From a virus, in IMG/VR virus record IMGVR_UViG_3300025466_000180, positions 1-23,510 of that record: a stretch of DNA of 23,510 nucleotides; one strand, given 5' to 3'. Position numbers and translations under genes: made by a program. Below, piece by piece: positions 2,212 through 23,510 of this stretch (positions are counted from its first letter, which is position 1; each line of letters opens with the position of its first letter). The notes beneath the pieces are model-generated. The model had not been told where the DNA came from. It saw nothing but the letters and a program-made list of their open reading frames with translations, and ran no database searches.

Positions 2212-2387
2212 GTTACGATTCAGATTTTGAAAGTGTATACATGGTTGAGTTTGATTCTGGCAGAACCATTCATGTGCAATTCTTTGATGTTGAAGAAGTA
2301 AAAGAGTATTGTGCAGATAACCATGCTGGTGAAAAAATCAAAACAATCTATAAAGAAGTTTATTATAAAGAATATGATGAAGCTTGA
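2208..2387 (+). CDS. Small acidic hypothetical protein
   Basis: 59 residues, acidic and Tyr-rich, no recognised domain. It begins with ATGA overlapping the upstream stop and ends inside the start region of the next gene, so it belongs to the same translationally coupled chain. Confidence 0.65.
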   Translation: MSYDSDFESVYMVEFDSGRTIHVQFFDVEEVKEYCADNHAGEKIKTIYKEVYYKEYDEA

Positions 2388-2571
2388 AATTAGTTATGAA
2401 GTTGCTGATGGTATCACATTGGCTAATCTACAAGAATGTAGAAAGTATCACAAAGAAGAATTAAAGAAAAAAAGGAAAAATCCAAAGTATTGGATTCATT
2501 CTGAAGATGTGGTATTGTATGGTAAGTATATTGCTGCATTGGATATATTGATTGATTATTATGGGGGTTAA
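2377..2571 (+). CDS. Conserved small phage protein (KLEISYEVADGIT type)
   Basis: 64 residues from ATG 2377 (another ATG lies one codon upstream at 2374). The N-terminus KLEISYEVADGITLANL and the C-terminal ALDILIDYYGG match a small protein that I recall from many tailed phages. It is a helical, highly charged protein of unknown role. It overlaps the preceding gene by 11 bp. Confidence 0.75.
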   Translation: MKLEISYEVADGITLANLQECRKYHKEELKKKRKNPKYWIHSEDVVLYGKYIAALDILIDYYGG

Positions 2572-2572
2572 A

Positions 2573-2767
2573 ATGAAAGCATTTCCTAGTTTAGAATGGA
2601 TAAGTTCTGATGGTAAACAGAGTGGTGAAGGCATGGACTTGCGTGATTACTTTGCTGGTCAAGCATTAACAACAATGAATTTTCATATAAAGCCAGTTGA
2701 TGATACGGATTTCACAGCAGAACATTGTTATAAAATGGCAGATGCAATGATGAGAGCAAGAAAATGA
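2573..2767 (+). CDS. Conserved small phage protein (MDLRDYFAGQAL type)
   Basis: 64 residues. The ATG follows GGGGG (2563-2567). The core GMDLRDYFAGQAL and the C-terminal YKMADAMMRARK recall a small family common in phages and prophages, in which the last helix is typically ADAMLxAR. Function unknown. The next gene starts within its stop codon (ATGA at 2764). Confidence 0.75.
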   Translation: MKAFPSLEWISSDGKQSGEGMDLRDYFAGQALTTMNFHIKPVDDTDFTAEHCYKMADAMMRARK

Positions 2768-2970
2768 ACGCAAATGAACTAGCAGAAGGAATACTTGCAA
2801 TAGAAGAAAGAATATTCTTAACAAAGAAAGAACATCAATTATTTCAAAATTCAGCCGCCATGCTACGCCAGCAACAAGCTGAAATAGAAGCGTTGAATAG
2901 AGAGTTATTGCGCTATAAATCAAATGGAGAAATGGGTTATGCAAATGAATTTTATAAACTGGGTATTTGA
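2764..2970 (+). CDS. MNANELA-type coiled-coil protein, paralogue 1
   Basis: 68 residues starting MNANELAEG with a MLRQQQAEIEALNREL coiled-coil segment near residues 38-53. The same start and MLRQQQAEI motif recur in the gene at 5998-6309, so the two are paralogues. Similar N-termini are found in phage and plasmid hypotheticals. Probably a small oligomerising protein, role unknown. Confidence 0.75.
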   Translation: MNANELAEGILAIEERIFLTKKEHQLFQNSAAMLRQQQAEIEALNRELLRYKSNGEMGYANEFYKLGI

Positions 2971-3034
2971 TGGCAGTTTTAAATGGTGGTTACTTGGTGT
3001 GGTTATTTTTTACATCATAGCTAGATATAGTTAA
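2945..3034 (+). CDS. Tiny single-pass membrane protein
   Basis: 29 residues with an aromatic N-terminus (FINWVFDGSFKWW) and a hydrophobic segment LLGVVIFYIIA, ending ARYS. It overlaps the preceding gene by 26 bp in another frame and ends 16 bp before the next ATG. The absence of a strong ribosome-binding site lowers confidence, but the length-filling position and clean transmembrane pattern support it. Confidence 0.5.
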   Translation: MNFINWVFDGSFKWWLLGVVIFYIIARYS

Positions 3035-3050
3035 GAAAGGCACAAGAAAA

Positions 3051-3371
3051 ATGAGTGTATATACACCAGACCTTTGGGTCATTGTTGAAGTTGATAGTAA
3101 AGAACACGGCAAACTGCGTAAAGTATTGGGTAGTTGGTATGGCCGTGGATTTGGTGGAGATGAATGGCGTTTTAGTTCAGGTATTACCAAGATTGAAGAA
3201 AAACTGGATGACAAGTATCCCCACTATTTGATCCACAATGAATCGGGTTCGGTGTATACTTGTTATGCCAATTGTGTTGGTTGGAGTTCTTACACAAGCG
3301 ATGTTTATAATGACCTGAAGAAACAGATGGAAGAACAGGGATTAGGAACTATGGAGAGAGTAACATTATGA
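3051..3371 (+). CDS. Conserved phage hypothetical protein (YTPDLWVI type)
   Basis: 106 residues. The N-terminus YTPDLWVIVEVDS, the Gly/Trp-rich GSWYGRGFGGDEWRFSSG (near residues 28-45) and a late YTCYANCVGWSSYTS form a pattern that I recall from uncharacterised phage proteins. The ATG is preceded by AAAGG (3036-3040) within a repeated initiation cassette that also occurs at 7227-7244 and 7373-7390. Confidence 0.75.
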   Translation: MSVYTPDLWVIVEVDSKEHGKLRKVLGSWYGRGFGGDEWRFSSGITKIEEKLDDKYPHYLIHNESGSVYTCYANCVGWSSYTSDVYNDLKKQMEEQGLGTMERVTL

Positions 3372-3565
3372 ATGATAAGTTTAAAGAACTCTCTGCATTG
3401 GCACAAGAAAAACTAATTGACCCTATCACCGGCGAAGAATACTATTCATTTAGTAGAATGAAATTCGCTGAGTTGATTGTGCGAGAATGTGGTGCGGTAG
3501 CGTTGAATATTGGATGCGGTGATATTGAAGATGAATTGCTTAAACATTTTGGAGTTGAAGAATGA
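3368..3565 (+). CDS. KFAELIVREC/HFGVEE family protein 1
   Basis: 65 residues. It contains KFAELIVRECGAV and ends HFGVEE, features of a very common but uncharacterised small phage family that is usually present in several copies. Close relatives here are 5009-5311, and more distantly 3562-3750. The last 18 bp (3545-3562) code for HFGVEE and also provide GGAG and the ATG for the next gene. Confidence 0.8.
   Translation: MNDKFKELSALAQEKLIDPITGEEYYSFSRMKFAELIVRECGAVALNIGCGDIEDELLKHFGVEE
3545..3562 (+). repeat. HFGVEE junction cassette, copy 1
   Basis: An 18-bp sequence CATTTTGGAGTTGAAGAA, present exactly at 3545-3562, 5210-5227 and 5291-5308, with variants at 3733-3747 and around 3970-3982. It encodes HFGVEE and at the same time carries GGAG at the right distance from the next ATG. 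Confidence 0.8.
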
Positions 3566-3750
3566 ATGATTGTAGAGGACTATGGAGATTGTTGGAAGAA
3601 TCCTACATGGAAGGGTATGATATGTATACCAAAGAAGATTTGATTGATTTTGCTGCATTGGTTGTTAAACGATGTGCGGCAGTTGCCATGGTGGCCACCG
3701 ATGATAATTTTCCGGTTGATAATCTGTTCGAACATTTTGGAATTGAATGA
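3562..3750 (+). CDS. YTKEDLI/HFGIE family protein 2
   Basis: 62 residues. The N-terminal half (LLEESYMEGYDMYTKEDLI) pairs with the gene at 6302-6544. The C-terminal half (DFAALVVKRCAAVAM... and final EHFGIE) pairs with 3368-3565. It therefore looks like a member, or mosaic, of the same paralogous set. Its start is inside the upstream HFGVEE cassette and its own tail is a variant cassette. Confidence 0.75.
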   Translation: MNDCRGLWRLLEESYMEGYDMYTKEDLIDFAALVVKRCAAVAMVATDDNFPVDNLFEHFGIE

Positions 3751-3986
3751 GAACTGAACTTAAAATAAAACGATTGCTTAATAAGCATACCACCTATCGC
3801 CGACACGATCCAATATTACCGCGTCTTGTAGGTGAACCTGTTGTTATGGAAACGGTGTATTGTTTCAAGGAAAGTGACTTGAAGAAGTTTGTTATCGGAC
3901 TCGTTGATATACACAATAAAGCACGGGCACAAGGATTAGACCCGCAACCTCGATATTATGAGCAATATATCGGAGTTGAAGAATGA
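3747..3986 (+). CDS. Hypothetical protein ending in a GVEE cassette
   Basis: 79 residues, basic at the N-terminus (KIKRLLNKHTTYRRHDP), helical in the centre, ending YIGVEE. Body not recognised. The shared GVEE tail seems to come from the repeated junction DNA (GGAG at 3972-3975 plus the ATG of the next gene at 3983) rather than from common ancestry of the whole protein. Confidence 0.7.
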   Translation: MRTELKIKRLLNKHTTYRRHDPILPRLVGEPVVMETVYCFKESDLKKFVIGLVDIHNKARAQGLDPQPRYYEQYIGVEE

Positions 3987-4225
3987 ACGAGAAGATAAGA
4001 AGTGTTAAACCTGCCAAAGGTTTAAAAGGTTTCATCATGCATGGCGTTGATATGGATGGTGGCACCTTCTATTTCTTCCGTGTGTATAATGAGGACTTTA
4101 CCTTTGTTGATTATGATATTACACACCATGATTTAGAAGTGGAGATATTAGAGGCTGATGCTATGTTGTATCGTAGTGAGTTTGGTAATTGTATTGATTA
4201 TCCACCTATTGATGAAAGCAAATAA
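3983..4225 (+). CDS. Conserved small phage protein (LKGFIMHGVD type)
   Basis: 80 residues. LKGFIMHGVD, then FFRVYNEDFTFVDYDITHHDLEVEIL and a late GNCIDYPP, match a recurrent uncharacterised phage family that I recall. It is predicted to be a beta-rich soluble protein. It is initiated from a GGAGTTGAAGAATG cassette and ends one base before the next ATG. Confidence 0.75.
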   Translation: MNEKIRSVKPAKGLKGFIMHGVDMDGGTFYFFRVYNEDFTFVDYDITHHDLEVEILEADAMLYRSEFGNCIDYPPIDESK

Positions 4226-4615
4226 ATGACAGTAAGATATTCTACAAATTGGATGGGTGTTATCAATATGCAATGGTATATTGACCGTGGTTTAACCAAA
4301 AGAGTAACACGAACACTTACCGAAGATTCTAAATTAACTGGCAGAAAAGCTGGTGAATCATTTGAGTATAATGAGATTACTCAATCATATTCATGTGGTC
4401 GTATTGATTGCCATGGTGATGAATATGGTGAAAGTTTAGGACCATATGGTGCAGAGATTAGTATACCCCCAATGACTGAGCAAGATTGGGGTAGGTTTAG
4501 TAGATGGTTGGATACCTTTGAAACTGATGCAATGTGGAAATTCAAAGATATTGTTGAATTGTATGAAAGAGAAAATCCAAAAATAACTTGGGCGGAAGGA
4601 TATGATGATTATTAA
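4226..4615 (+). CDS. Conserved phage protein (RYSTNWMG type)
   Basis: 129 residues. RYSTNWMGVI, WYIDRGL, a CGRIDCHGDEYGESLGPYG segment, IPPMTEQDWGRFSRWLDTFET and a final YERENPKITWAE are characteristic of an uncharacterised family that I recall from many tailed phages. There is no visible enzyme motif. The ribosome-binding site is weak, so coupling to the upstream gene is likely. It overlaps the next gene. Confidence 0.8.
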   Translation: MTVRYSTNWMGVINMQWYIDRGLTKRVTRTLTEDSKLTGRKAGESFEYNEITQSYSCGRIDCHGDEYGESLGPYGAEISIPPMTEQDWGRFSRWLDTFETDAMWKFKDIVELYERENPKITWAEGYDDY

Positions 4616-4859
4616 ATTAAAACAGATTCGTGAATTAATGTCGGGTGGTTATCACCAGCAATCAATTCGCATTAACTCCAATCACATTCAGTATTACCAT
4701 GAAGATATATTACAAATACCTTGTGAGCCGGATATTCCGGTTACTCGCATAGTAACTTTATCGTTTGATGATATTTTGGTAACACAAACATTAGAAGAAA
4801 TTGATTTGATTTTGAATGAAGATATGCGAGTGCAAAGATATGAACAACCTGTTCTTTAA
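4605..4859 (+). CDS. Hypothetical phage protein
   Basis: 84 residues, not recognised. ATG 4605 is preferred over 4602 because GGAAGGA (4594-4600) is then 4 bp away. The sequence suggests alternating strands and helices, with no membrane segment or cysteine motif. Both ends overlap neighbouring genes. Confidence 0.65.
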   Translation: MIIKLKQIRELMSGGYHQQSIRINSNHIQYYHEDILQIPCEPDIPVTRIVTLSFDDILVTQTLEEIDLILNEDMRVQRYEQPVL

Positions 4860-5016
4860 TTCCAGTGATACTATCATTGTAACCAAAACACCGAGTGTGG
4901 AGTTTAATGATTATGTACCACGATGGTTTATTCAACAATTTATAAAGTATATGGGTAAAGGCCATATTAAAGTTAAAGATTATCAAGGTAATGAATTGAA
5001 AGTATATTATGAATGA
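4840..5016 (+). CDS. Hypothetical phage protein
   Basis: 58 residues from ATG 4840. A longer version from 4816 would overlap the upstream gene by 44 bp. It contains VPRWFIQQFIKYMGKGHIKVKDY, suggestive of a basic helix-strand unit. Not recognised. The next gene starts inside its last codons. Confidence 0.6.
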   Translation: MNNLFFNSSDTIIVTKTPSVEFNDYVPRWFIQQFIKYMGKGHIKVKDYQGNELKVYYE

Positions 5017-5311
5017 GAAGATTAAACAATTACTGTTAGATGCAGGTGGTCAGTACAGTTCTGGTAATCAAAACGATTGGCCAAGTTGGGTTTTAGGTGA
5101 TGTCGGTGTAACCAAGTTCGCTGAGTTGATTGTGAAGGAATGTGCTGAAGTGGTAAAAAATCAATATAGTGAAGATTGGGGTAAGTGGTCAAACAGAATG
5201 ATTCTAGAACATTTTGGAGTTGAAGAATTGCAACAAACAATAGACTTTGAAACACAGGATCCGGAAACAGCAAAAGGCACCAAAGTAAAACATTTTGGAG
5301 TTGAAGAATGA
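5009..5311 (+). CDS. KFAELIVKEC/HFGVEE family protein 3, with duplicated tail
   Basis: 100 residues. MNEKIKQLLLDAGGQY, KFAELIVKECAEVV and ILEHFGVEE define the same family as 3368-3565. Unusually, the protein continues for 27 residues after HFGVEE and ends with a second HFGVEE. The two tails are encoded by an exact 18-bp direct repeat (5210-5227 and 5291-5308). Only the second carries the downstream ATG. This looks like recombination at the junction cassette that extended the protein. Confidence 0.8.
   Translation: MNEKIKQLLLDAGGQYSSGNQNDWPSWVLGDVGVTKFAELIVKECAEVVKNQYSEDWGKWSNRMILEHFGVEELQQTIDFETQDPETAKGTKVKHFGVEE
5210..5227 (+). repeat. HFGVEE junction cassette, copy 2 (internal)
   Basis: An exact copy of the 18-bp cassette, but here followed by TTG rather than TGA, so the reading frame continues to the next copy at 5291. 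It marks the old end of the gene. Confidence 0.75.
5291..5308 (+). repeat. HFGVEE junction cassette, copy 3
   Basis: An exact 18-bp copy that ends the gene at 5311 and supplies GGAG (5297-5300) and the first base of ATG 5308 for the next gene. Confidence 0.8.
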
Positions 5312-5538
5312 TTCAGATGCGATGGTTAAAAAAACAAGTGGTTACGACCGAACATTTAACTGATCCAAGAGGTACCACACATTTACAAACTGTGGAAATT
5401 TTACAGTATCGTGAACTGCGTAAAGTGATGAATAAGAAGTTGATGGCAGAACTTGGTAGCAGTTACAGAGAAGAAAAGTGGACAGATTGGAAAGATGTAC
5501 CAACAGAAATTGAGGACATTAGAGGAAAAACATTATGA
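5308..5538 (+). CDS. Small hypothetical protein
   Basis: 76 residues, basic, with no recognisable domain. It starts in the HFGVEE cassette (GGAG 5297-5300) and its stop overlaps the next ATG. Predicted mostly helical in the second half (YRELRKVMNKKLMAELG). Confidence 0.65.
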   Translation: MIQMRWLKKQVVTTEHLTDPRGTTHLQTVEILQYRELRKVMNKKLMAELGSSYREEKWTDWKDVPTEIEDIRGKTL

Positions 5539-5723
5539 ACACAATTTATCCAACAACCACGATTGAATCACAAGGCCTTCAATACGCTTCCATAATTGAT
5601 ATGGGAGATAAGGTGAGAATTCAATTGTATCCCAACCAAGTGAATAAAACAATGTTTATTAATATTGATAAACGAGTGGTATCTGAATTGATTAGAGCTT
5701 TAGAGAAAGTGGAGCAATGGTAA
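5535..5723 (+). CDS. Small hypothetical protein
   Basis: 62 residues, predicted beta strands followed by a helix (VVSELIRALEKVEQW). Not recognised. It is translationally coupled by overlaps at both ends. Confidence 0.65.
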   Translation: MNTIYPTTTIESQGLQYASIIDMGDKVRIQLYPNQVNKTMFINIDKRVVSELIRALEKVEQW

Positions 5724-6001
5724 ACACAAAACCAATTTTAGGTGATAGTCGCCTGAATGTTACTGATAATCTAGGAAAGTATGAAGTGTTTAATGGTGAA
5801 ACATGGGTAATCATGGAGAATTATGATACCATTGAATCATTACGAGCACAGAATAATAAGTTACAAACAGATTTAGATATTGCATTGAGTTATATGAAGC
5901 AATATGAATTACAAATTACACAATTAAAAGTGGCATATGAACAAGAGCAATACCGTAGTAAACAATGGCAAGAACGATTTGAATCGGGGAGATTAACATG
6001 A
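5717..6001 (+). CDS. Coiled-coil hypothetical protein
   Basis: 94 residues. The first 35 resemble a small strand-rich cap (YEVFNGETWVIM). Residues 40-90 form a long coiled coil (SLRAQNNKLQTDLDIAL and onward). Such short phage coiled coils often act as adaptors, but no specific role is visible. It precedes another coiled-coil gene at 5998. Confidence 0.65.
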   Translation: MVNTKPILGDSRLNVTDNLGKYEVFNGETWVIMENYDTIESLRAQNNKLQTDLDIALSYMKQYELQITQLKVAYEQEQYRSKQWQERFESGRLT

Positions 6002-6309
6002 ACGCAAATGAACTAGCTGATGAATTAGATATTCATGTGTCAATGGGACAGAGTAAGTTTTTTAAAGAGTGTGCCGAAATGCTACGCCAGCAACAAGCTG
6101 AAATAACTAACTTAATGGAATTGGTAGATATTCAAAAAGCTGTATCGAGAGATGTAGATATTGATTTTCTAAACCTAACCATTAGCCAGCAACAAGCTGA
6201 AATAAAAGATTTGAAACAACAGGTGTCATTTTTAGAGGACTGGCGGGATACATGGTCGCCTACTATTAAACAACTAATGAATATTAATGTAAAGGTTAAA
6301 GATGAATGA
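5998..6309 (+). CDS. MNANELA-type coiled-coil protein, paralogue 2
   Basis: 103 residues starting MNANELADEL, with MLRQQQAEI (near 27-35) and a second QQQAEIKDLKQQVSFLE. The first part is a paralogue of 2764-2970, and the start-region DNA is nearly identical. The internal QQQAEI repeat suggests growth of the coiled coil by duplication. Function unknown. Confidence 0.75.
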   Translation: MNANELADELDIHVSMGQSKFFKECAEMLRQQQAEITNLMELVDIQKAVSRDVDIDFLNLTISQQQAEIKDLKQQVSFLEDWRDTWSPTIKQLMNINVKVKDE

Positions 6310-6544
6310 TTATGAAAATTTAGAGAAGTTGCTTGAAAAATCCAAAATGGATGATTACATGATGTATACCAAAGAAGATTTGATTGAGTTTGCACAATTG
6401 GCGATTGAAGAGGCCATTTATTGTGTGGACATCCCAATGTCAGAGAGAAACACCATCCGTGTAATGATGGGAATGTTTGACCAGATGGAATCACCAAAGG
6501 CCAGAAATATTGGATTGGTTACCACTAGAGATTGGACAAAATGA
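6302..6544 (+). CDS. YTKEDLI family protein 4
   Basis: 80 residues. LEKLLEKSKMDDYMMYTKEDLIEFAQL pairs with the N-terminal half of 3562-3750, and the DNA around YTKEDLI is almost identical. The C-terminal half is unrelated and lacks the HFGVEE tail. Its stop is followed directly by the first phased repeat at 6550. Confidence 0.75.
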   Translation: MNDYENLEKLLEKSKMDDYMMYTKEDLIEFAQLAIEEAIYCVDIPMSERNTIRVMMGMFDQMESPKARNIGLVTTRDWTK

Positions 6545-6549
6545 GTGTG

Positions 6550-6642
6550 TGTCAACAAAAGTGTTAATAACCACCTATATTTGCTCGGAATGTCAACGGA
6601 ATTACATATTATGACTGGTTTTGTCAACGGAAGTGTAAATAG
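6550..6642 (+). repeat. Phased 21-bp direct repeats, cluster A
   Basis: Three copies related to TGTCAACRRAAGTGTWAAT begin at 6550, 6591 and 6622. The middle copy is degenerate after its first 11 bases. The spacings of 41 and 31 bp are near whole helical turns. Cluster B (7899-7991) repeats the same three-copy, 41/31 layout. Together with the inverted repeat and promoter just downstream it looks like a regulator-binding array. Confidence 0.75.
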
Positions 6643-6646
6643 AAAT

Positions 6647-6697
6647 GTTGTGCCAAAACAACAGCACCATTGACATTGGTACCAACACCTGTATAAT
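6647..6697 (+). promoter_or_regulatory. Promoter P2 with upstream inverted repeat
   Basis: An inverted repeat GTTGT-N6-ACAAC (6647-6662), a 7-bp gap, a consensus -35 TTGACA (6670-6675), a 16-bp spacer and -10 TATAAT (6692-6697) followed by GGT. It drives the SWIM-finger gene at 6719 and probably the four genes after it. Confidence 0.75.
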
Positions 6698-6718
6698 GGT
6701 AGAATTAATGGAGAAAAT

Positions 6719-7111
6719 ATGAGTATATCAGCGTATAAAGAAATTACAGAATGGGATAATTCAGAGTTTGTGGTACCGAATCATACTTACCTATTTGATG
6801 GCAAGTCCAATATTCTGGCATATGCCAAGGCGAGCAATGATGAGTTGGTAATATTACATAAGCCATTGGCAATGGATACCCGTAGGCGTAAGTTTATCAA
6901 GGTCAAACATGAATCATTGGACTCATATGGCGCAACGGTGGTGATTGATGTGCCTAACCTTGAGAGTACGCCTCATTGGTCAGTCAAGAGTGATTCAGGC
7001 AAGACCTATACGGTGACCTTGGAGAGCGGTAGATATACTTGCAACTGTATTGGATTTGCATATAGGGGAGCTTGTAAGCACTCAAAACAGATTAAGGAAG
7101 AAAATGAATGA
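6719..7111 (+). CDS. SWIM zinc-finger protein
   Basis: 130 residues. The C-terminal third contains a complete SWIM-type zinc motif: C108-x-C110, eight residues, C119-K-H121, preceded by strands (KTYTVTLESGRYTC). SWIM fingers bind zinc and mediate DNA or protein contacts. Small SWIM proteins are common in phages. The N-terminal 100 residues are strand-rich and not recognised. It is the first gene behind promoter P2 and the phased repeats, so it is a candidate regulator, possibly of its own promoter. That last point is inference. Confidence 0.85.
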   Translation: MSISAYKEITEWDNSEFVVPNHTYLFDGKSNILAYAKASNDELVILHKPLAMDTRRRKFIKVKHESLDSYGATVVIDVPNLESTPHWSVKSDSGKTYTVTLESGRYTCNCIGFAYRGACKHSKQIKEENE

Positions 7112-7244
7112 AGAAGAATGGGTAACAATACCAAAATCACAAATTGATATGTTGGTATTGAAAGCCAATATTGAGTTAATTCAAAAAGTGGACCGTTTGG
7201 TGAATTTGATTGAATCTGAAATTGAGAAGGCACAAGAGAAATGA
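7104..7244 (+). CDS. Small helical protein ending KAQEK
   Basis: 46 residues, single long amphipathic helix (KSQIDMLVLKANIELIQKVDRLVNLI). ATG 7104 overlaps the upstream stop and is preferred to in-frame upstream alternatives that lie within the SWIM gene. The last codons (KAQEK) lie in an 18-bp junction cassette (7227-7244) that supplies AAGG and the ATG of the next gene. Confidence 0.65.
   Translation: MNEEEWVTIPKSQIDMLVLKANIELIQKVDRLVNLIESEIEKAQEK
7227..7244 (+). repeat. KAQEK junction cassette
   Basis: An 18-bp AAGGCACAAGAGAAATGA, repeated exactly at 7373-7390 and with one mismatch at 3037-3054. It holds AAGG and an ATGA overlap. In the first two places it encodes KAQEK plus the stop. 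At 3037 it is non-coding leader. Confidence 0.75.
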
Positions 7245-7390
7245 GTTTATTTAAAGCAATGATTATTGTATTTTTAATATCAATTAGTATTTTTATTTAT
7301 TCCGTTAATAGAATTGTTTATGAAATTGAAACAACTGGTCTTAAAACTGTTGTTGAGCAAGTATGGTACGGAAAGGCACAAGAGAAATGA
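7241..7390 (+). CDS. Small single-pass membrane protein ending KAQEK
   Basis: 49 residues. Residues 5-23 (KAMIIVFLISISIFIYSV) form one transmembrane helix with a short N-terminus, followed by a charged tail. It ends in the same KAQEK as its neighbour because the same 18-bp cassette recurs exactly at 7373-7390. Function unknown. Possible inner-membrane effector. Confidence 0.65.
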   Translation: MSLFKAMIIVFLISISIFIYSVNRIVYEIETTGLKTVVEQVWYGKAQEK

Positions 7391-12201: not shown

Positions 12202-12909
12202 ATGGGAACACGGTCACTTACATTTGTATACGAAAAATATGGCCAAGTACAGAAGCCAGTAGTTAATATGTACCGCCAGTTTGATGGATATCCTGAAGGT
12301 CATGGTGCTGAGTTGGCAGAATTCCTCAGTTCAGGTACAATGGTTAATGGACTGGGTGTTGGTAGTAAAACATTACAGTTTAACGGCATGGGTTGTTTGG
12401 CAGCGCAGATGGTTGCTCACTTTAAACAAACACCGGGGGGTTTCTATATTCATCCAGTTGATGTTACCGATTGTGGCCAAGATTATGAATACCACATCTA
12501 TGATAGTGGTAAAGGTTTATATGTTGAAGTATATAATTGTGGATGTAATTTCTTTGGTGTGAGTGGTGATACTCACGAGAATATCTTCAAAGGCAATTTA
12601 AAAGAGTTTACTAAGTTTTGTGGAAAAGAATCGGAAGAAATTAATTTTCAATCCATTGACGAAGTAAAATCTTTGTTACAAGAAAACATTGCAACGGTAA
12701 CATTTATCAAAAATGATGGTTCGGAAAGAACCATGAAATGTACCTTGAACAAAGAATTAATTCCACAAAAGGTGCATGAAACAAAACGAATCAATGAGCA
12801 AGTTCGTGCAGTATCTAATGAGGTATTACCTGTGTACGATTTGATTGCTGAAGGTTGGAGAAGTTTTCGTTTAGATTCAATCATTAAAGTAGAAAAGGAA
12901 ACAGTATAA
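12202..12909 (+). CDS. MGTRS-type protein fused to a WYL_2/Sm-like domain, paralogue 2
   Basis: 235 residues. Residues 1-142 are a close paralogue of the protein at 1750-2211 (same MGTRSLTFVYEKYGQ start, YRQFDGYPEGHG, NGMGCLAA, FYIHPVDVTDCGQDYEY and EVYNCGCN). Residues 150-232 add VTFIKNDGSERTMKCTLN and VYDLIAEGWRSFRLDSI, the signature of the phage WYL_2 (Sm-like SH3 beta-barrel) family, elsewhere a stand-alone protein as far as I recall. The fusion suggests that the two domains act in one process. That process is unknown, though SH3/Sm folds often bind nucleic acid or protein. It is the first gene of the P4 unit. Confidence 0.85.
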   Translation: MGTRSLTFVYEKYGQVQKPVVNMYRQFDGYPEGHGAELAEFLSSGTMVNGLGVGSKTLQFNGMGCLAAQMVAHFKQTPGGFYIHPVDVTDCGQDYEYHIYDSGKGLYVEVYNCGCNFFGVSGDTHENIFKGNLKEFTKFCGKESEEINFQSIDEVKSLLQENIATVTFIKNDGSERTMKCTLNKELIPQKVHETKRINEQVRAVSNEVLPVYDLIAEGWRSFRLDSIIKVEKETV

Positions 12910-18061: not shown

Positions 18062-19375
18062 ATGTTTATACTTGTAATTGACCCATCAGGTCTCACATTA
18101 GATTGGTGTTTACGCTGTGTTGCAGCTGGACATACAGTAAAACTTTATACCAAAGGTTCAAGAGCTTCCCATATTGGCCAAGGATTGATCGATAAGGTTA
18201 CTAATTGGAAACAATACGTCAAAGTTGCTGATCTAATCTTTAGTTCTGATAATCTTGAGTTTATGGATGATATCCAAGATTTAATCAAACAAGGTTATCC
18301 AGTATTCGGACCAGGTAAAAATGCCGCTAAATTAGAATTAGACCGTATGTACGGTCAAGATGTTATCAAGGCATTTGGTGGTCCAATCATTCCTTCACAC
18401 GAATTTAAAAATTATGATCAAGCTATTAAGTTCGTTAAAGAGAACCCAAAGCGTTATGTTTGTAAACCTTGCGGTGAAGAAGAAGATAAATCTCTTTCAT
18501 ACGTTGCTAAAGATGAAGCCGACTTAATTGGTTTCTTGACAAAACGTAAAGAAAAAGGTAAGGGTTCTCCTTACTTCATTCTCCAAGAATTCAAAGCCGG
18601 TACCGAAATTGCTTGTACTGGTATATTCGGTCCTGCCGGTTGGATGCCTTTCTGGTGTGAAGGTTGGGAATTCAAGAAACAGATGAATGGTGACCTTGGT
18701 GTGAATACAGGTGAAATGGGTACTGTTACTCGTTACACTAAAGAATCCAAGATTGCTGACATTCTTATGAAACCAATGGAAAAAGAATTACACAAGATTG
18801 GTTACGTTGGTATGCTCGACATGAACTGTATCATTGATGAAAAAGATGGTACGCCTTGGCCTATGGAGTGGACCGCACGTCCAGGTTATCCAATGTGGAA
18901 TATTATGCAACCACTTATGATAAATGAAGATCCTGCCGAATGGATGCTTGACTGTATCAAAGGCAAGAATACTCTTGAAGTTGAATTTGAAACCTGTGTT
19001 GGTGTTGTTATGGCTAATTCAGACTTCCCATTCAACAAAAAAGATGAGGAAGAATACCTAGACTTCCCAGTACTCACGGACGATATTGACCATAAGCATC
19101 TACATCCTTGTGAAATGAAACTCTCCAAGACCGTTAAAATGATCGATGGTGAACTCTGTGAGAATGTACCAGAACTTGGTACTGCAGGTACATACATTGT
19201 AGTATTGACTGGTTGTGGAAATACAATCTCCGAAGCTAAAGATGAAGCATATGCCAATGTTAAGAAAGTTAAACTTGGTAATGATCCACAATATCGTACT
19301 GATATCGGTGAAAAATGTGAAAAAGGTTTGGCAAAGTTGAAGAAATTTGGATATTGTAAGGATTGGAAGTATTGA
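18062..19375 (+). CDS. PurD-like ATP-grasp protein
   Basis: 437 residues with AGGA (18053-18056) 5 bp upstream. It has the domain order of GAR synthetase (PurD): an N-terminal alpha/beta domain (1-80), an ATP-grasp fold (about 82-280) with GPGKNAAKLE near 83-92, LQEFKAGTE, the diagnostic GDLGVNTGEMGTVTR (210-224) and YVGMLDMN, and a GARS-C-like end with GTAGTYIVVLTGCGNTISEA. Two deviations matter. The canonical GGREHA loop that contacts phosphoribosylamine is replaced by DPSGLTLD, and the metal-site EFNxRFGDPE is changed to EWTARPGYP. It should still bind ATP and join a carboxylate to an amine or similar, but true purine synthesis is doubtful. A phage-specific ligase is as likely. Confidence 0.82.
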   Translation: MFILVIDPSGLTLDWCLRCVAAGHTVKLYTKGSRASHIGQGLIDKVTNWKQYVKVADLIFSSDNLEFMDDIQDLIKQGYPVFGPGKNAAKLELDRMYGQDVIKAFGGPIIPSHEFKNYDQAIKFVKENPKRYVCKPCGEEEDKSLSYVAKDEADLIGFLTKRKEKGKGSPYFILQEFKAGTEIACTGIFGPAGWMPFWCEGWEFKKQMNGDLGVNTGEMGTVTRYTKESKIADILMKPMEKELHKIGYVGMLDMNCIIDEKDGTPWPMEWTARPGYPMWNIMQPLMINEDPAEWMLDCIKGKNTLEVEFETCVGVVMANSDFPFNKKDEEEYLDFPVLTDDIDHKHLHPCEMKLSKTVKMIDGELCENVPELGTAGTYIVVLTGCGNTISEAKDEAYANVKKVKLGNDPQYRTDIGEKCEKGLAKLKKFGYCKDWKY

Positions 19376-21050: not shown

Positions 21051-22493
21051 ATGATTTTTGAGATACATAGTGAGCGCAGTGCTGAAGATAAAAAAATCTT
21101 CTATTATGATAATGAAACCAACTTCTTAAAAAGTGAAGATGGAATTGTATATGAATTTCCCGAAGGTTCGATTCATGACCATCAATTGACCGAATATAAA
21201 TCATTCGATAAGGATCGTCCTCTAAAGAAATCTAGGGAAGTTCAGCTTCTCAAAATTCAAATGGGTTTAAGTTGTAATTACTCTTGTGATTATTGTTCAC
21301 AGAAATTTGTTGAACGAGCACCAGAAACTTCTAAGAAAGATATTGATGCTTTCATGGAGATGTTGAATAATCTAGAGTTCTCTGCTGAAAAAGGATTAAA
21401 GATTGAGTTTTGGGGTGGCGAACCTTTAGTGTATTGGAAGACTATGAAGCCTTTGGCTGAAGCCATTGTAGATAAGTTCCAACATTGGGATCGTCTACCA
21501 CAATTCTCTATGATTACCAATGGTTCTATACTCACCGATGAAATTTGTGATTGGTTAATGAAGTATAATTTTTCCGTATCAATCTCACATGATGGTCCTG
21601 GACAATCAGTCCGTGGTCCTGATCCATTTGATGATCCAGTAAAGAAAAAAACTATTCTTGGTTTCTATCGTATGATGAGTCGGTTGAAAAAAGGTATTTC
21701 TTTTAACCCAATGATGAATAGTAAAAACAAATCTCGTAAAGAAATCTTTGAATGGTTTGTAAATTTAACGGGTGATGTTAATGTTAAGCTGGGTGAGGGT
21801 GGTATTGTAGACGCTTATGATGAAGATGGTATCACAAACTCTTTACAATCATTACAGGAACATTTTGAATATCGCAGAACAGCTTTTTCTGATTTATATG
21901 CTACTAATGGTAAAATGGGATTTGTTGGAATTCAAGGTAAAATTGATGGGTTCTTACAATCAGTATTATCACATTCAAACTCAAAGTATCTAGGTCAGAA
22001 GTGTGGAATGGATGATGAGCATGTATTAGCGGTAGACCTTAGAGGTAATGTAATGACTTGTCAAAATGTCAGCTCATTAGAAACATCCAAGAATGGTGAA
22101 TCTCATTTGGGTGGTAACCTTAATGATTTTGATGCCGTTGAAATCAAAACTTCTACACATTGGAGCAATCGTAAAGAATGTGGTTCTTGTCCAGTGTTGC
22201 ATCTATGTAAAGGTGCTTGTATGTTTTTAGACAAGAAGTTTTGGGATATTTCTTGTGCCAATTCATATTCGGATAACATTTCCTTGTTCGCTATTGCATT
22301 AGAGAAGATGACTGGTTACATTCCAACCCTCATTAAAAATGATGCTTTACCGACTGAGCGCCAAGATATTTGGGGTACAATTTATGAACATAAAGAGAAA
22401 ACTGTAAGAAAGATCATTCCAATCAAAGTGATTAGTGAACTCTCTGGCAATATTGAAGGTGTTGAGGTCTACGGACAATCGTGGGTAAAATGA
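21051..22493 (+). CDS. Radical SAM/SPASM peptide-maturase-like enzyme
   Basis: 480 residues. Residues 1-65 are an N-terminal region of unknown fold that could recognise a substrate. The radical SAM core starts with C75-x3-C79-x2-C82 (CNYSCDYC), the ligands of the catalytic 4Fe-4S cluster, followed by the SAM-contacting GGEP at 122-125 and further barrel motifs (MITNGSILTD, SISHDGP). The C-terminal domain has a full SPASM signature, C318-x13-G-x4-C337, then C377-x2-C380-x5-C386-x3-C390, then C402, predicted to hold two auxiliary clusters. SPASM enzymes install thioether, C-C or related cross-links in ribosomal peptides or act as anaerobic sulfatase maturases. The last 75 residues are family-specific. 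The neighbour 37 bp downstream encodes an extremely Cys-rich protein, the natural candidate substrate. No RiPP transporter or protease is present, which fits a protein that stays with the phage. Confidence 0.9.
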   Translation: MIFEIHSERSAEDKKIFYYDNETNFLKSEDGIVYEFPEGSIHDHQLTEYKSFDKDRPLKKSREVQLLKIQMGLSCNYSCDYCSQKFVERAPETSKKDIDAFMEMLNNLEFSAEKGLKIEFWGGEPLVYWKTMKPLAEAIVDKFQHWDRLPQFSMITNGSILTDEICDWLMKYNFSVSISHDGPGQSVRGPDPFDDPVKKKTILGFYRMMSRLKKGISFNPMMNSKNKSRKEIFEWFVNLTGDVNVKLGEGGIVDAYDEDGITNSLQSLQEHFEYRRTAFSDLYATNGKMGFVGIQGKIDGFLQSVLSHSNSKYLGQKCGMDDEHVLAVDLRGNVMTCQNVSSLETSKNGESHLGGNLNDFDAVEIKTSTHWSNRKECGSCPVLHLCKGACMFLDKKFWDISCANSYSDNISLFAIALEKMTGYIPTLIKNDALPTERQDIWGTIYEHKEKTVRKIIPIKVISELSGNIEGVEVYGQSWVK

Positions 22494-22530: not shown

Positions 22531-23510
22531 ATGACCATACAATCATCAGGACCAATTGGCATTTCCGATGTAACCGCTGAACTGGGTTTAGGAACAACCT
22601 ATTCGGCTTCATTGAGTTTTCTTAATGGATTTATGAAAAATCCAGCAACACCACCCAACTTAGCTGAATTTTATGGCCAGGCTTATTTTCAAAGTAATGC
22701 ACTAGGTAATTGTAACAACGGAAACTGTGGAACCTCAGGAGGAGGTAACGGAAATTGTACTACCAATTGTAACTGTGGAAATATTCAATGTAACAATTGT
22801 ACTATTGCTGGTCCATCCGATTGTTCAAACTGTGCAAACTGTAATGCTGTCAATTGTGCAAACTGTGATGCTAAAGCGTACTTACAATCAAATTGTAATT
22901 GTGCTTGTTCTTATAACTGTACTACTAATGGTGTAACCTACAACTGTACAACGAACCTAACTTCATATAACTGTAATTGTGCTTGTAACTGTTCTAAGAT
23001 TGTTTGTGCTAAATTGTTTGACCTTGGCATGATGAGTCACAATGTATGGGCAGCAGATCAGGCATATGGTCAGATGTTACGCCAAACAGATAAGAATATC
23101 TATCGTGGCTATATTCGTTGGGCCCGTATTGTTACATCGTGGATGGAAGGCAAGGGTCCTGATTTTATGGTTTGGATTAAAAATAAAGAAGAACGTCAGA
23201 AAGCACAACAGAAAGCCATGATTGATATGGCTAATAAGATTGGTCAACCATGGTCACAACACATGGCGTATCTAATGGGTGCTGTTGAAAAAGATAATAC
23301 AATGGGTCGTATTTTAATGAACATTGGTCGTCCTATTTGTAGGATTGTTGATATGTTACCTAGAGTTGCTAAGACACAACGCAAACATGGTTTGATTACT
23401 GTGGGTACTATTTGGTTCTTTTTGTTCTTTAGTTATTATACAGCATCAATATTGGTTAAATCATTTAATTTCATTAATAAAATTAAAAAAACAAAAATTC
23501 TGAAGGATGC
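22531..23510 (+). CDS. Asn-Cys-repeat phage structural/membrane protein, 3' end cut off
   Basis: The frame is open from ATG 22531 to the window end, at least 326 residues. Residues 1-52 (IQSSGPIGISDVTAELGLG, then PPNLAEFYGQAYF) are the N-terminal module found in many phage tail-associated proteins. Residues 61-159 form a low-complexity domain with 22 cysteines, 17 of them preceded by Asn (CSNCANCNAVNC and similar), plus Thr, Ser and Gly. Residues 160-285 are a helical domain with YRGYIRWARIVTSWMEGKGP and PWSQHMAYLMG, which looks familiar from phage hypotheticals but has no name that I know. Residues 289-309 (TVGTIWFFLFFSYYTASILV) are a likely membrane helix, followed by a basic tail. Candidate substrate of the radical SAM/SPASM enzyme just upstream. 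Metal or cluster binding by the cysteines is the main alternative. Confidence 0.85.
   Translation, partial: MTIQSSGPIGISDVTAELGLGTTYSASLSFLNGFMKNPATPPNLAEFYGQAYFQSNALGNCNNGNCGTSGGGNGNCTTNCNCGNIQCNNCTIAGPSDCSNCANCNAVNCANCDAKAYLQSNCNCACSYNCTTNGVTYNCTTNLTSYNCNCACNCSKIVCAKLFDLGMMSHNVWAADQAYGQMLRQTDKNIYRGYIRWARIVTSWMEGKGPDFMVWIKNKEERQKAQQKAMIDMANKIGQPWSQHMAYLMGAVEKDNTMGRILMNIGRPICRIVDMLPRVAKTQRKHGLITVGTIWFFLFFSYYTASILVKSFNFINKIKKTKILKD

Follow-up and report, generated by a model that had tools for sequence, protein, structure and literature searches.

We analyzed a 23.5 kb virus record (hereafter the window) in which a radical SAM/SPASM (rSAM) gene sits directly upstream of a gene whose product, here called NC protein, contains a module rich in Asn-Cys dipeptides. 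It appears reasonably likely that NC protein is a tail-associated structural protein and that its module is post-translationally modified by the adjacent enzyme, probably by the formation of thioethers. We hold it to be highly probable that the two form an enzyme-substrate pair, and the co-occurrence of this enzyme with an Asn-Cys tag was found to be near-obligate across unrelated carrier proteins. The features concerned are listed in Table 1.

Table 1. Features of the enzyme gene and the NC protein gene in the window
Feature	Position	Strand	Basis or remark
Radical SAM/SPASM maturase gene, 480 aa	21051..22493	+	Pfam, PHROG, NCBIfam, AF2, PDB fold
CxxxCxxC (C75, C79, C82), SAM-binding [4Fe-4S] cluster	21273..21296	+	invariant in 48 aligned sequences
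SPASM domain, seven Cys (C318, C337, C377, C380, C386, C390, C402)	22002..22256	+	invariant in 48 sequences
NC protein, presumed substrate	22531..23508	+	326 codons within window
N-terminal domain, residues 1-57	22531..22701	+	alignment; common to short relatives without C-terminal domain
Asn-Cys module, residues 61-159, presumed modification substrate	22711..23007	+	Cys/Asn counts, AF2, dN/dS
C-terminal helical domain, residues 156-326 here	22996..23508	+	AF2 pLDDT about 90 over most

Judged by its sequence and predicted fold, the upstream gene encodes an intact rSAM/SPASM enzyme. It scored 37.1 bits against Pfam Radical_SAM (cut-off 29.5), with motif and fold in agreement, and matched PHROG 1802 with an E value of 5.3e-62. 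The SPASM cysteines follow the pattern CX9-15GX4C-gap-CX2CX5CX3C-gap-C with the right spacing, and the glycine (G332) was invariant as well among the 48 diverse sequences aligned. Its NCBIfam matches were mostly peptide-modifying radical SAM/SPASM maturases, all listed scores being well below the curated cut-offs; this includes the best match, rSAM_PapB (9.9e-25), and the enzyme falls outside the PapB family (NF047865, 87.5 bits against a cut-off of 340). The AF2 model reached a pLDDT of 91.3, and after re-ranking of Foldseek matches the closest PDB structure was CteB, a SCIFF maturase that forms thioethers (Z 23.8, rmsd 4.7, 358 residues, alignment from residue 1), with further matches to ChlB (Z 20.2), anSME (Z 19.5) and TigE (Z 17.8).

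The segment singled out in the first-pass annotation, 22711-23007, translates in frame to residues 61-159 of a plus-strand ORF that runs open to the window end, one more codon and a stop lying just beyond; the product has 327 aa in locus L086. A recount confirmed the cysteine content given there as about 22% (22 of 99 residues, 22.2%), which compares with 2.3% across the window's longer plus-strand ORFs, while Asn contributes 24 residues and His none. The described regularity was equally borne out, as Asn precedes 17 of the 22 cysteines, 16 of the 21 Cys-to-Cys gaps span 2-5 positions and the repeats SNCNCAC and YNCNCACNC both occur in NC protein. NC dipeptides number 16 in the module, whereas 20,000 shuffles of its own residues gave 5.3 on average and never more than 12. 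Searches of Pfam and PHROG with NC protein at E 0.01 gave no match. The description of the domain as unusual in kind holds up well, and the check for a known disulfide or metal-binding repeat family returned zero Pfam families at this threshold. An NCBIfam match was meaningless, and the sole PDB sequence match of the NC alignment, a cytochrome c555 fusion (E 4.5e-6), covered the border between N-terminal domain and module with no stretch passing alone and was set aside as unspecific. AF2 modeled the module mostly at pLDDT 27-58; such predicted disorder would be expected if the structure needs a modification that AF2 cannot know, low confidence alone being no proof.

An assembly artefact, against which the module had to be checked, was ruled out by a second IMG/VR contig that matches at 100% identity along 8,460 bases including the NC gene and continues past the window end, and NC protein homologues are encoded on tens of other contigs. 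Comparison of the NC units among these relatives, as suggested earlier, revealed about 14-28 cysteines, with some positions invariant or nearly so. Median dN/dS was 0.097 for the module, 0.088 for the C-terminal domain and 0.24 for the N-terminal domain, values that are approximate since dS exceeded 1. On these alignments the module is conserved and, by its substitution ratios, under purifying selection. The expectation that the underlying repeats could expand or contract stood in part: module length and Cys number do vary, but the fixed positions, the low dN/dS and the mixed Asn codons (14 AAC and 10 AAT in the window) speak against instability, and a slippage tract as the main reading was ruled out by dN/dS and the fixed positions. 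The label of a low-complexity tract had to be given up, the module being instead positionally conserved, selected and recurrent on unrelated tail-fibre-type proteins.

The association between enzyme and tag was analyzed from several starting points. When viral contigs were searched with the enzyme only, an NC-rich ORF adjoined it in 77 of 80 loci, and the contigs of the other three end before such an ORF could appear. Searching with NC protein only, an rSAM gene was present in 72 of 73 new loci, the lone exception starting inside the NC gene; the two sets overlap in some contigs. A blind scan of any viral contig with a 24-base pattern for N-C-N-C-x-C-N-C yielded 65 in-ORF matches; for 51 the retrieved piece also contained an rSAM gene, and for 7 others the complete record did. 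Of the remaining seven, three are located no more than about 1.1 kb from where a piece or contig ends, three fall in ORFs that are short or doubtful (L162, L193, L219) and one is a true exception, L164 (9833-11279), in which the Cys-rich N-terminal part of the product contains NCNCNCNC and the 47 kb contig is without a radical SAM match. One of the 15 short or out-of-frame matches had an rSAM gene, and this match lies in an NC gene that the end of the contig truncates. Relatives of the enzyme were also found in bacterial genomes, with tags upstream there too. A strict tag ORF (at least three consecutive XC dipeptides, two being NC) was present at 126 of 153 distinct enzyme loci, defined as enzymes differing by more than 10%, and in none of 9,311 shuffled ORFs; 134 tag ORFs lay on the same strand as the enzyme and one on the opposite strand. 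Several of the 27 loci lacking a strict tag are of the window type with a looser NC protein, while others are short pieces. Speaking against the partnership, some members of the rSAM family, those of Variovorax among them, have no NC partner. For the Campylobacter phage rSAMs (26% identity) none was seen in the genes inspected around that of CP20. We take the NC module to be the enzyme's most likely substrate.

In a quick, unfinished tree search (unrooted), the window type fell within a fully supported clade of 24 representatives, surrounded by fibre-tag types, and the Variovorax/Ramlibacter branch was without tag. At L338, L341, L342 and L352 (about 2300-7300) enzymes of the latter type lie beside a peptide of about 70 aa (L341: ...NCNVEVEPSSIDFLNEGAVFVAGSTSDCGC...), and L341 also encodes, next to the rSAM relative, a protein interpreted as YcaO plus nitroreductase; by their gene content these loci look like an ordinary, undescribed RiPP cluster. 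A different repeat, CQTCQGCQKCQ..., with an NCNCDCNC-type tag at its end and a distant rSAM gene adjoining (25-26% identity), was observed at L165 (2383-2754, minus strand), L188 and L225.

In the same virus, NC protein is followed by genes for a 114 aa protein, a 2OG-FeII_Oxy_5 oxygenase, an unassigned protein and an aspartyl/asparaginyl beta-hydroxylase family member. 2OG-Fe(II) oxygenases were encoded at 83 of the 153 enzyme loci and peaked within 5 kb of the rSAM gene, reaching a density of about 0.2 per kb bin at positions -1 kb and +2 to +5 kb and falling almost to zero at -4 to -6 and +6 kb, a clustering partly due to gene order common to lineages. Other enzymes were noted at single loci, namely a tryptophan halogenase (L060, 8722-9876; Pfam E 9e-93) shortly after the rSAM gene and beside a 2OG oxygenase, and a fatty acid desaturase (L097). 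Elsewhere in the window, two copies of one gene (1750-2211 and 12202-12909) encode products that both start MGTRSLTFVYEKYGQ, one being C-terminally longer, and ORF 18062-19375 encodes a GARS-like ATP-grasp protein (purine synthesis family) without PHROG match at E 0.01.

The carriers of the tag vary considerably. In window-type proteins the NC module lies between a short N-terminal and a helical C-terminal domain, while short NC forms comprise 130-160 aa. Some short relatives end directly after the module (CACACW, CADGGGG or CACGG), and others continue past it into a Peptidase_S74 endosialidase-chaperone domain; at L155 the NC gene and that of an S74 protein overlap by 4 bases and a 1557 aa DUF4815 protein precedes them. 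In Achromobacter phages JWF (cultivated and UV-inducible, PMC3899368) and 2-1, which encode a 45% identical enzyme homologue, a tail-fibre-like protein two genes upstream of the enzyme carries the NC repeat (NCNCDCNCNCSC in JWF) directly before a Hint (autoprocessing) domain. This arrangement was also present at five bacterial loci; NCNC..C directly followed by Hint (CFPAGT...) was seen at L003 (3793-5244), L004 (3685-5127), L285, L317, L349, L350 and L357. The position of Hint after the tag suggests an autoprocessing step by which the modified fibre end could be set free, cyclised or transferred. In numerous further phages and prophage-like loci the tag forms the extreme C-terminus of fibre-type proteins (NCNCNCRC, NCNCDCNCC etc.); these fibre-tag loci belong to Burkholderiales, Rhodobacterales and Rhodospirillales, and some of the carriers contain collagen repeats.

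Tail-fibre-type domains and a position in tail clusters were seen in relatives, whereas for the window protein itself the indications are confined to the occurrence of its C-terminal domain close to fibre genes elsewhere and a weak match of its N-terminal domain. The C-terminal domain recurs at the end of Synechococcus phage SynMITS9220M01 gene 028, after the fiber gene, where Gly-rich, poly-Pro and poly-Arg stretches precede it in place of NC, and structurally resembles a DUF4815 phage protein, while the N-terminal domain is weakly similar (E 5e-3) to a protein encoded right after the tail fibre gene of Vibrio phage BUCT194. PDB matches of the C-terminal domain were middling helical ones (Z 6 and below) of little meaning. 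The cyanophage protein at L002 (4669-6519) has a Gly-rich stretch, a long proline run and poly-Arg ahead of a window-type C-terminal domain. The window protein has a single hydrophobic C-terminal helix (KD 1.64); a strong C-terminal membrane anchor was not supported as a family trait, KD values of at least 1.6 being reached in only 24% of long forms. The case for tail association is strong for the relatives, and the association is probable for the window protein because of the tail-type carriers among them and the occurrence of its C-terminal domain beside fibre genes.

The modification that we infer, with the NC module as substrate, would proceed as follows. The rSAM enzyme probably binds the NC precursor and then would generate a 5'-deoxyadenosyl radical, which would take a hydrogen atom from an acceptor residue, most likely Asn or Asp. 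A Cys sulfur held at the SPASM auxiliary cluster would join this acceptor, resulting in several thioether (ranthionine-like) cross-links, and residues such as Asn or Asp may in addition be hydroxylated by the co-encoded 2OG-Fe(II) oxygenases. A tail or fibre protein would thereby acquire, near its tip or linker, a small covalent knot that withstands reduction and proteases, presumably made in the reducing cytoplasm, where disulfides form poorly. Cys-Asn and Cys-Asp C-beta thioethers are known (PMC8326336, PMC11002830), and we put thioether chemistry on the NC module at an even chance or slightly better. The earlier idea of a cross-link scaffold holds up well.

A radical/thioether mechanism has been discussed for NxxcA, the one known Cys-Asn ranthipeptide, in which Cys23 is joined to Asn20, i.e. 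NxxC (PMC8326336). Among 768 cysteines of 68 non-redundant NC proteins, Asn was found at -1 for 69%, and Asn at -3 was frequent only with Cys at -2. Without Cys at -2, 34 of 292 NC-type cysteines (about 12%) had Asn at -3, and these counts leave NxxC unsupported as a recognition unit. Since Asn is rare at -3 and common at -1, an Asn in NxxC register may not be the acceptor; the recognition unit therefore differs from that of NxxcA, while the chemistry may be alike. A CxxxD/E repeat was not observed either, as the window protein has two CxxxD, one of them outside the module, and D/E occupied +4 for 212 of 2787 cysteines.

Modification of the module by the same enzyme through another reaction (oxidation of Cys to formylglycine as by anSME, Asn epimerisation or heterocycle formation) appears unlikely. 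In its favour are the close fold match to anSME, the annotation of the JWF homologue as a sulfatase maturase, the constancy of Asn immediately ahead of Cys and the location of distant Variovorax relatives beside YcaO and nitroreductase RiPP genes. Against it, CteB fits the enzyme better than anSME, and from residue 1, the sulfatase motif C-x-[PA]-x-R is missing in the window protein and present in only 2 of 212 NC proteins, and thioether substrates typically have a dense Cys array.

Metal loading or a bare redox-sensitive surface had also been proposed for the module; because of the adjacent radical SAM/SPASM gene, enzymatic modification of Cys or Asn, thioether formation first, is far likelier. 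A metallothionein-like scaffold for metal or Fe-S clusters, beside an rSAM neighbour serving another job, is highly improbable: so many cysteines (22 of 99 residues) could bind metal, but the pairing with the enzyme persists across unrelated carrier proteins, the module matches no Pfam family at E 0.01 and is free of His, and we know of no counterpart to the Asn-before-Cys rule in metallothioneins. Delivery of NC protein by the phage as a modified RiPP-type peptide, antibacterial or membrane-active and not structural, is the least probable, for even though the short forms end in Cys-rich tags, the window protein has its one hydrophobic helix and tag release via Hint and S74 domains is conceivable, the tags are carried by fibre-type proteins with collagen or chaperone domains, such helices are confined to a minority of long forms and no export or immunity gene was recognised adjacent to the NC gene.

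The recurrence of this enzyme and substrate pair on tail-fibre-type proteins of many phages and prophages suggests a chemical remodelling, by the phages, of some of the machinery with which they contact the host. Whether many tailed phages and prophages put RiPP-type radical cross-links and hydroxylation on a portable Asn-Cys tag of tail fibre or receptor-binding proteins is, in our judgment, evenly balanced. If true, a virion protein would be a substrate of RiPP-type radical chemistry, with Asn-Cys repeats as a new substrate rule, and a large set of unexplained phage rSAM genes (PHROG 1802) would be explained. It would also suggest a disulfide-free way of hardening some tail parts, and the tag together with its enzyme would offer a portable means of making covalently knotted protein termini. 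The open-access literature searched did not describe the NC protein/rSAM pairing or thioether-modified tail fibres, an absence that is weak evidence. As far as this search reached, there is no earlier account of the virion-type substrate, the Asn-Cys rule, the added oxygenases or a portable tag that either ends the protein or is followed by Hint or S74.

The kind of enzyme, in contrast, is already known. PHROG 1802 (radical SAM domain-containing protein) includes it but names no function or substrate. Anaerobic sulfatase-maturating enzymes are alike in fold, but the enzyme here scores 51.7 against their NCBIfam cut-off of 349 and the sulfatase substrate motif is missing. QhpD, which acts on QhpC, is an rSAM/SPASM enzyme that cross-links Cys inside a structural subunit of quinohemoprotein amine dehydrogenase; its model TIGR03906 matches the enzyme here with an E value of 4.6e-20, but with a score of 71.7 against a cut-off of 453, and NC protein is not the subunit on which QhpD acts. 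With the ranthipeptide maturases (CteB/SCIFF, PapB/freyrasin, NxxcB) our system shares a full-SPASM rSAM enzyme beside a Cys-rich ribosomal substrate. In contrast to their short peptides with CxxxD or NxxC, the substrate here is a tail-type protein of 130-600 aa with Asn-Cys dipeptide repeats, and the enzyme, far under the NCBIfam cut-offs for these maturases, occurs in phages and prophages with 2OG oxygenases co-encoded.
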